Shown: piece by piece, positions 37,533-50,394 of the stretch | Layout: each line of letters opens with the position of its first letter | Numbering within the stretch: position 1 is the stretch's first letter | Source of the DNA: an uncultured Fibrobacterota bacterium | GTDB taxonomy: Bacteria; Fibrobacterota; Fibrobacteria; Fibrobacterales; Fibrobacteraceae | Direction: 5' to 3' | DNA: 64,000 nucleotides | NCBI GenBank assembly: GCA_903876665.1 | Contig: CAIRAY010000150.1 | Span: 1 to 64,000 of the forward strand | The notes under the pieces: generated by a model | What the model was told of the DNA's origin: nothing | What the model saw: only the letters and a program-made list of their open reading frames with translations | Database searches by the model: none | Translations under genes and position numbers: made by a program

Positions 37533-37644
37533 TATTTCTACCTTTGACTGCGTCTAGGCCCTGCGCAATGACTGCTTTTGGGTAACCCGCCAGGGCGAGA
37601 GCAGCAACGGACTCGAGAACTTTTATGTGCTGCAGGTCGCCTAG
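37516..37644 (+). pseudogene. decayed small reading frame with in-frame stop
   Basis: An ATG inside the Nudix gene opens MTGPLDISTFDCV, then a TAG at 37555, then a further 28 in-frame codons (ALRNDCFWVTRQGESS to FYVLQVA) and a second TAG at 37642. The two parts read as one protein-like sequence with sensible composition. The opening faintly resembles HI0074-type nucleotidyltransferase partner proteins, which is only a guess. It looks like the stump of a gene once coupled to the Nudix gene. Confidence 0.35.
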
Positions 37645-37679
37645 ACACTTTTCCCCTCCATTCTGACTTTCGGCCAAGT

Positions 37680-46611: not shown

Positions 46612-46680
46612 TGTCATGCCCAGCATGGGCATCACAGAATATTTCCGAATGGTGCGGTGATGCCCATGCTGGGCATGACA
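46612..46680. repeat. 69-bp palindromic repeat (REPIN-like), full copy
   Basis: Arms of 24 bp (46612-46635 and 46657-46680) are perfect inverted repeats around a 21-base loop. Each arm is itself a small hairpin (atgccca-gca-tgggcat). It sits between two convergent genes and could serve as a terminator for both. Confidence 0.92.
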
Positions 46681-47869: not shown

Positions 47870-49144
47870 ATGATCCGATCCAAATTTGCCGGCCTCGCGC
47901 TCTTGATGATTTTTACCATGCCCTCAATCGCACAGGATAGCCTCCCTGCGGTTCCCGCAGGTGTCCCTACGGATATACCGGTGGCGGTGATTCCCACCGT
48001 TCTGGCCCCCGCCGATAGCGTCACCCGGAACGCCTTGCACGACAGCCTAGCCACCGCCTTTATCCAAACCTGGTTCGGAAGCCCTGCCGAAGCCTTGGTG
48101 GGCAAAGCCTCTCTGAAACTGGATGCCTACGATTCGTTGCAAAAGAATTTTCCTGTAAAGGCTTTCATCAAAGAGGGAATCCTGGAATTTTCCCTTCAAG
48201 GAATTTTGCCCTTTCCCAAAGATTCCCTGGCTCGCTTCCGCAAGGCCAAAGACTGGAAGGTGAAGGTTTCGTACCATGACCACACCATTTTTGCGCAGCC
48301 CAAAAAGAAGGATAAACGGGCAATCCTTATCGATGGAGTCTCCATTGAGGTCAATGGCATCTCCTATCCAATTCTCGCAGAATTCTGGCTGCCCGCAAAA
48401 GTAACCGCTTCGCCCGAGTACACGGCCTGGCGCGACTCCCTCCAGGCTCAGGGACGATTACGCACAACATTCCGAGGCTGGATGACTGACCCCCGAGATT
48501 CCCAAACCTACCCCTGGATTCGGCTCGACAGCAACGACTGGTTCTCCCGCTACCTGTCCTATGGCGTAGATGGATCCTATCCTTGCTCGGATCGCCCGGA
48601 ACACGCCGGTTGTCGCAAGTATTCCCGGGGTGATGCCTCCAGTATTTGCCCAGCGGGTTGGGGGATCCCGGGACCTGTGGAAATCACCCATTTCATGCGT
48701 GCCTGGAGAGGCTCCGGGCCCGACACAGCCAATCCATTTATGTTTGGCCCAGCGGTGTGGGAAATCGCCGATGCGGATTCCCTTTTGGAAAACGGAGCCC
48801 GTATGCTGGTCACCCCTTGGACGGGCCTGGGGATGATCGCTCCCCATTTCTGGACCTATCTGGAATCCTTTGCCACCGACTCGGCTTCCCGGGTTGGTCT
48901 TTTGCAGTTTGGCTGGTCCGAAACGGGCTGGATGTCGGAATTCAATGTGGACGAAAACGACCGCAAGGTTCGCCCCATCCGTTGTGTGCGTAAGGATATT
49001 CCCAAGTCCGAGGTGGCTCCGGACCTATCCTCCGAAACTCTCCCGTTGCCAGAGCCTTCGGCTAATTCCGTGGTGCCGATGGAGCCCGTTGTTGATGCGA
49101 TTTCGGCTACGGAATCTCCAAACACAAATCCACCCACTCCATGA
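47870..49144 (+). CDS. secreted FISUMP-domain protein (Fib_succ_major type)
   Basis: 424 residues with a signal peptide (FAGLALLMIFTMPSIAQD). Residues about 195-385 follow the Fibrobacter succinogenes major paralogous domain: GWMTDPRDSQTYPWIRLDSN, GVDGSYPCSD, SSICPAGWGIPGPVEIT and VRPIRCVRKD, with paired cysteines. The C-terminal 40 residues are low-complexity Pro/Ser/Glu. Function of the domain is unknown; it is expanded in Fibrobacter surface proteins. The stop overlaps the start of the acyltransferase gene by 4 bases. Confidence 0.85.
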   Translation: MIRSKFAGLALLMIFTMPSIAQDSLPAVPAGVPTDIPVAVIPTVLAPADSVTRNALHDSLATAFIQTWFGSPAEALVGKASLKLDAYDSLQKNFPVKAFIKEGILEFSLQGILPFPKDSLARFRKAKDWKVKVSYHDHTIFAQPKKKDKRAILIDGVSIEVNGISYPILAEFWLPAKVTASPEYTAWRDSLQAQGRLRTTFRGWMTDPRDSQTYPWIRLDSNDWFSRYLSYGVDGSYPCSDRPEHAGCRKYSRGDASSICPAGWGIPGPVEITHFMRAWRGSGPDTANPFMFGPAVWEIADADSLLENGARMLVTPWTGLGMIAPHFWTYLESFATDSASRVGLLQFGWSETGWMSEFNVDENDRKVRPIRCVRKDIPKSEVAPDLSSETLPLPEPSANSVVPMEPVVDAISATESPNTNPPTP

Positions 49145-50394
49145 ATTTTGCTTCCCGCTTTGCGGTTCTGCGCTTTCCCTTAATGGTCCTGGTGGCCTTC
49201 ATTCATGCGGATAACCGCGACATCTGGGTGAATGGAACCATTGGTGTGCTTAGGCCTGAGGGCGATTTTGCCTTGTGGCTTCGCTATTTCCTGAGTCAAG
49301 GTGTGGCCCGGGTTGCTGTTCCGCTGTTCTTTGCCATTTCTGGTTACCTGTTCTTTTTGGGCATGGAGGGTAGCTTCGTTGAATTTGTACGTAAATGGAG
49401 AAATCGAGCGCGTACCCTGCTGATGCCATTTGTGGCGTGGAGCATTTTTGTTTTTGTGATCGTCTGTGCCGTTCGTCAGCAGTGGCCCTATACTCATGGC
49501 TTGGAAGCCACCCTCAACAAGTTGTTTGGGCTTACCAAGCCCATGTACCTTTTCCACTTCTGGTTCCTCCGGGACTTGATCCTGATGATCCTTCTCGCCC
49601 CCGTATGGTGGTTTCTGGGCCAGGACATGCGAATTAAAGTGCAAGTCAGTCATGCTAAAGTGCAAGCCTGTCATGCTAAAGTGCAAGCCTGTCATGCTAA
49701 AGTGCAAGCCTGTCATGCCCGGCACGGGCATCACAGAGAATTGCCGAATGGTGCGGTGTTGCCCGTGCCGGGCATGACAAAGACCACGGAACTACTGCAA
49801 AAGATTGAGATGTTTTTTATGCGTTTGCCTTGGTTTCTGCGGAAAAATCTGGCCTGGGTTTTCTTGGCAATTTTCGCTGGGGTGCATCTATTTTATCCCA
49901 TCCAATTTCCATTTCCGAGCTCTGTTGGAGTGCTTTACTTTTTCTTGGGGTGCGTGCTTGCCATGCGAAACTGGTCGGGCCTAACCCTTGATTATCATGG
50001 CAAAAAATGGATCGTCGCCTATGGGGTTATTGCCCTGGTCGATTCATTCGATTCTGGAAATCCCTGGTCTAGGTATGTTCATGAGGCCAGTCTTTTCGTG
50101 GGTTGTGGGGCGTTCCTCGCTTTTGCCAAGATGATCCAAACCCGATGGGGGAAGGTTTCCCGTGTATTGGAAATACTGGCTCCGGCGAGTTTTTTCCTCT
50201 ACGCGGGGCATGAGCCCCTTTTGCACTACACTCGGCACGGACTCAATCTTCTCTTGCCCGGTGGAATCGACCGGGGCGCATATTTGCTCTACCTTTTGCC
50301 ACCCTTGTTTGCTGTGGTTTTTTGCACAAGCCTTTACTTCCTGGCCATCCGCAGAGTCCCCATTTTGAAGACTCTGTTTGCGGGTGGTCGCTAA
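49141..50394 (+). CDS. acyltransferase-3 family membrane protein with repeat-derived insertion
   Basis: 417 residues, about ten membrane segments, of the OafA/NodX acyltransferase family that acylate surface sugars. Family marks: RFPLMVLVAFIHADN at the start (FIH as the active-site histidine region), AVPLFFAISGYLFFLG and FLYAGHEPLLHY. Residues about 166-213 are foreign: four seven-residue repeats (KVQACHA) followed by a translated 69-bp palindrome, both multiples of three, placed after the segment LILMILLAPVWWFLGQ. The frame stays open. Translationally coupled to the FISUMP gene by an atga overlap. Confidence 0.87.
   Translation: MNFASRFAVLRFPLMVLVAFIHADNRDIWVNGTIGVLRPEGDFALWLRYFLSQGVARVAVPLFFAISGYLFFLGMEGSFVEFVRKWRNRARTLLMPFVAWSIFVFVIVCAVRQQWPYTHGLEATLNKLFGLTKPMYLFHFWFLRDLILMILLAPVWWFLGQDMRIKVQVSHAKVQACHAKVQACHAKVQACHARHGHHRELPNGAVLPVPGMTKTTELLQKIEMFFMRLPWFLRKNLAWVFLAIFAGVHLFYPIQFPFPSSVGVLYFFLGCVLAMRNWSGLTLDYHGKKWIVAYGVIALVDSFDSGNPWSRYVHEASLFVGCGAFLAFAKMIQTRWGKVSRVLEILAPASFFLYAGHEPLLHYTRHGLNLLLPGGIDRGAYLLYLLPPLFAVVFCTSLYFLAIRRVPILKTLFAGGR
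49636..49719. repeat. 4 x 21-bp tandem repeat inside a gene
   Basis: Four units of aaagtgcaagcctgtcatgct (first and last slightly different), adjoining the palindromic repeat and sharing its tgtcatgc end. It adds 28 codons. Confidence 0.95.
49711..49779. repeat. 69-bp palindromic repeat (REPIN-like) inside a gene
   Basis: The same length and plan as 46612-46680: 24-bp arms with one mismatch, a 21-base loop almost identical (ccgaatggtgcg). It contributes exactly 23 codons to the acyltransferase. Confidence 0.95.

Follow-up and report, generated by a model that had tools for sequence, protein, structure and literature searches.

The acyltransferase gene at positions 49141–50394 of the window (the whole 64,000-nt stretch analysed) carries a tandem array and a palindrome within its reading frame, which raises the question of where this DNA came from and what it has done to the protein. 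The features concerned are:

47870–49144, + strand: upstream gene, 424 aa, family not assigned (4-bp overlap with the acyltransferase start)
49141–50394, + strand: Acyl_transf_3 membrane acyltransferase gene, 417 aa (PF01757 match, ORF list)
49635–49718, + strand: head-side array of four 21-bp units, unit TAAAGTGCAAGCCTGTCATGC, translated as KVQ(V/A)(S/C)HA heptads (TRF)
49711–49779, + strand: 69-nt palindrome, a head-to-head REP dimer translated as CHARHGHHRELPNGAVLPVPGMT (inverted repeat, genome-wide family)
49712–49732, + strand: first REP hairpin, GTC-ATGCCCG-GCA-CGGGCAT-C (exact family consensus, stem covariation)
49758–49778, − strand: second REP hairpin, an inverted copy with one mismatch (REP family members)

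Based on a Pfam profile search, the 417-aa product matched PF01757 over residues 9–398 (E 4.7e-23, 82.2 bits against a cut-off of 31). The match covered profile positions 6–318 of 326, with the insert lying inside it, and acyl transfer is the activity predicted from this match. The family motifs H22, W141-F142-x-R144 and H357-E358-P359 were intact, on both sides of the insert. The ATG start of the gene overlaps the stop of the upstream gene by 4 bp (ATGA), and the two probably belong to the same operon; the upstream gene itself had no Pfam match. Elsewhere in the window, a bacterial small SRP RNA (Rfam RF00169) was located at 37552–37649 on the + strand.

The four 21-bp repeats and the 69-bp palindrome that an earlier note had reported in frame within this gene were recovered by TRF, as an inverted repeat and as 48 open codons. 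The array comprised 4.0 copies of 21 nt with 96% matches (TRF score 154), its first unit being unlike the other three at 3 positions, and the palindrome arms (49711–49734 and 49756–49779) were 24 nt each, 96% complementary and 21 nt apart. The stretch 49636–49779 (144 bp) thus holds 48 codons without a stop in the ORF's frame; they encode residues 166–213 as KVQVSHA-(KVQACHA)3-RHGHHRELPNGAVLPVPGMT and include 7 His and 3 Cys. Array and palindrome lengths are not simply additive, because 8 nt are common to both: the palindrome starts with the TGTCATGC that closes the last unit. The roughly 48 residues given in the earlier note are indeed open in frame, but the net gain is perhaps 44 codons; the insertion would be nearer 69 + 3 × 21 = 132 bp if the 13-nt non-palindrome part of one unit was original gene DNA. 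The palindrome and array are not a chance arrangement. A search of the source genome at ≤3 mismatches gave 256 copies (125 + 131) of the 21-nt arm, whereas the reversed control gave 0, and the hairpin energy was −51.6 kcal/mol, against −30.7 ± 3.2 kcal/mol in shuffles (z = −6.5).

Across the genome, each arm forms a small hairpin, and two arms meet head to head with ~20–45 nt of core between them, giving dimers mostly 66–67 nt long, with others of 80–89 nt. The hairpins consist of GTCAT plus the stem, and a T precedes in most of the dimers listed. Four types of inner stem (GCCCG, GGCCG, CCCCG and CCCCC) were seen, each with its matching partner. Perfect inner stems were present in 175 of 183 hairpins although the search did not demand pairing, whereas shuffles gave a mean of 83 and a maximum of 100, in a comparison that ignores the relatedness of the copies. 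The stem is therefore conserved as a structure through compensatory changes, and the element is a 20–40-nt palindrome of high copy number and mostly intergenic location. By its tag, hairpin dimers, copy number and covarying stems, the family is of REP type. Among 60 relatives from the same family, class and phylum, the arm was absent except for one 2-mismatch match in relative G031, which was treated as chance, and the exact 24-mer was absent from all other GTDB species searched (85,000 species). The REP family is thus peculiar to this species or genus.

A second inverted-repeat element, whose ends resemble TTACTAACATCGTC, encloses some of the REP dimers (loci concerned: L189 at G000:C37:11978-12053, and C152, C188, C111, C181 and C3). 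An apparent empty 76-nt copy of that element on C37 could reveal the REP target site, with a possible 5-bp AATCY duplication. No target-site duplication was visible at the acyltransferase copy, the hints being confined to other loci.

The position of the REP dimers relative to genes was analysed in 1.56 Mb of the genome, which held 60 full dimers and ~76% of the known arms (195/256). By a simple codon-based gene caller, 58 of the 60 dimers were intergenic and the other 2 ran partway into weakly called genes, in a sample that was 78% coding. Since the caller missed the acyltransferase, all long ORFs spanning a dimer were also listed by hand. The acyltransferase dimer was the only one of the 60 inside a recognisable gene; seven other dimer-spanning ORFs of 224–562 aa had no Pfam family. 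The long dimer-spanning ORFs on C36, C9, C147 and C145 looked spurious or like N-terminal extensions, likewise with no Pfam family. As the sample covers ~76% of the arms, a few more gene-internal copies could exist. Dimer length was a multiple of three in 24/60 (about 40%), and a given frame was open in 57% of cases, so that a survivable, frame-keeping landing is not rare; landings that break the frame would be removed by selection.

Comparison with homologues indicated that the insert is particular to this gene. Where the acyltransferase has about 70 residues, six homologues have 0–4, among them the insert-free 364-aa paralogue at C121 in the same genome, and a shared conserved insert, which the earlier note had named as its refutation, was not found. 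The exact empty site is not visible because the homologues are distant (35–37% identity for the best), and a scan of GTDB contigs gave no closer ones. The ~20 residues that follow the palindrome (KTTELLQKIEMFFMRLPWFL, window 49780–49848) were also absent from all homologues compared and are not REP-derived. The earlier note had described an intergenic repeat exonised without breaking the gene: the repeat is an otherwise intergenic, dispersed one and the gene looks intact, but "exonised" does not apply, because no splicing is involved and the event is an in-frame insertion.

The array also has counterparts elsewhere. In the 1.56-Mb sample, 59 of 174 REP heads had an exact GTCAT copy 17–19 nt upstream. 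These head arrays usually have 2–10 units of near-constant length (mode 18), each composed of the REP's first several bases (typically 7–13) and DNA that differs by locus. Given this REP-derived start and locus-specific remainder, each insertion was most likely followed by growth of its array on the spot. The acyltransferase array is built like 50+ others, with the only 21-nt period seen against 17–19 nt elsewhere; this heptad period may be chance, or a filter imposed by the protein. The 21-bp repeats, which the earlier note had listed beside the palindrome, are thus better read as local amplification of the palindrome end and adjoining DNA than as a separately recruited repeat.

Two further REP dimers lie in the window. 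One (33–114 and 106–277) is bordered on its outer side by 18-bp units (GGGCATGACATGGCAAGT) in 9.6 copies and is a clean intergenic example of a head array; the other (46613–46679) sits between two convergent genes, one of 1491 aa and one for DAHP synthase, at their 3' ends. A short array with an 18-bp unit (TCCTCCCCGCAATTCCAG) at 321–365 shares the period and has no intact REP adjoining.

Taken together, the locus very probably represents a REP that inserted in frame into a cytosolic loop and was tolerated there, with its array expanding locally. A REP dimer of TGTC-tagged hairpins would have landed in the part of the gene that encodes the loop joining predicted TM4 to TM5, and the palindrome's outer end (the first 7–8 nt of the REP and 13 nt of neighbouring DNA) would then have been amplified in tandem to give the KVQACHA heptads. 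Because the palindrome and the three extra 21-bp units make a stop-free multiple of three, the protein would gain about 44–48 residues and stay full length. Charged residues (positive-inside) suggest that this loop is probably on the cytosolic side, and the insertion may have escaped purging because such a loop would tolerate extra length. We infer the order of events, the cytosolic side, a protein that is made and active, and near-neutrality. An AlphaFold model, built on a shallow set of 7 sequences (mean pLDDT 71), showed the heptads as a helix continuing TM4 (137–193) and the palindrome part as a low-confidence coil (194–213) followed by a short amphipathic helix. A fold search with this model gave no informative match, and no solved structural relatives were found by sequence.

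The insertion could instead have put the gene wholly or partly out of action, with an ORF that stays open by luck while a 20-bp mRNA hairpin or a distorted loop abolishes the product, so that the gene is a young, disguised pseudogene. The hairpin is indeed very stable at the energy given above and might lower yield. The gene family is also sparse, being present in 3 of the 61 genomes searched (its own included), and the gene is therefore probably dispensable. Against this, 417 codons are open with the motifs on both flanks kept, the REP frame in use is free of stops, and the gene begins within the end of its upstream neighbour, much as genes in an active operon do. We consider silencing unlikely, if still the most serious of the alternatives. 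An assembly error that fused a REP locus with the gene is the least probable of them: REPs do break the draft assembly, and many lie at contig ends, but this element is in the middle of a 72-kb contig, with parts of one Pfam domain on both flanks in one frame.

A functional role for the insert, as a Cys/His-rich heptad helix with metal- or partner-binding ability and a regulatory effect on the enzyme, is very improbable. Its composition and the 21-nt period, which yields predicted helical heptads where other arrays have 17–19 nt, speak for such a domain, but the encoded residues are exactly the REP consensus in that frame, no selection signal was measurable and the helix prediction lacks alignment support. 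Metal binding by the Cys and His residues, as the earlier note suggested, would be possible in principle from the composition of the insert but is unsupported, as the insert is missing from the homologues and shows no recognisable known site. A tolerated insertion thus remains the preferred reading. More tentatively, and with somewhat less than even confidence, we propose that REP hairpins in this genome seed outer-side arrays of 17–19 nt through a length-measuring process that copies junction DNA (e.g., paired nicks or a fork stalled at the hairpin base), and that within a gene this process writes periodic protein, here a heptad helix. If one mechanism does make these fixed-period arrays, the genome would hold >50 parallel examples of the birth of a bacterial minisatellite. 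Nothing matching REP-linked fixed-period arrays was found in the literature, of which coverage was partial.

BIME/REPIN elements are paired inverted hairpins with a GTAG tag that spread within genomes to high copy number and are associated with RAYT transposases. The present family has the paired inverted hairpins, copy number and within-genome spread in common with them, but differs in its TGTC tag, and a RAYT/Y1 transposase was rejected as its mover since the 93%-complete genome had no Y1_Tnp (PF01797) match while controls were positive. The unpaired CGTC/TGTC tag and the stem starting with AT instead point to the CGTC superfamily. According to Di Nocera et al. 2013 (PMC3733652), that superfamily likewise has an unpaired (C/T)GTC tag, a stem beginning AT, mostly head-to-head dimers, a mainly intergenic location and no associated transposase. 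CGTC-1 to CGTC-4 have stems of 8–9 bp, loops of 4–5 nt and a tail near CCA, whereas here the stem is 7 bp, the loop 3 nt and the tail CAC. Since tag, AT-initial stem and dimers are shared but stem and loop lengths are not, the most fitting label for the elements is a new REP family near the CGTC superfamily. The same paper reports intragenic CGTC copies coding 20–30 aa and clusters coding 43–82 aa; its available text contains no account of regular head arrays of 17–19 nt such as those seen here.

In-frame insertions in protein genes have also been reported for the Rickettsia palindromic elements (RPE; Ogata et al. 2000/2002, via PMC10969869, PMC2229807), and the latter source describes the RPE-decorated enzyme Gmk as made and active. 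Both systems place a palindromic, mobile-type element in frame in a protein gene. RPEs are 105–150 bp long, belong to other sequence families and are often intragenic, whereas the present element is 69 nt, with one gene-internal copy of 60 and a 24-mer confined to its own species in the GTDB search. Hence, in-frame insertion of a REP or RPE in a gene is a known kind of event, here documented outside Rickettsia, in a genome with a private REP family, as a selfish palindrome becoming translated sequence of a membrane enzyme; the head-seeded tandem array, which links short tandem arrays with the ends of REPs, is the unusual feature.
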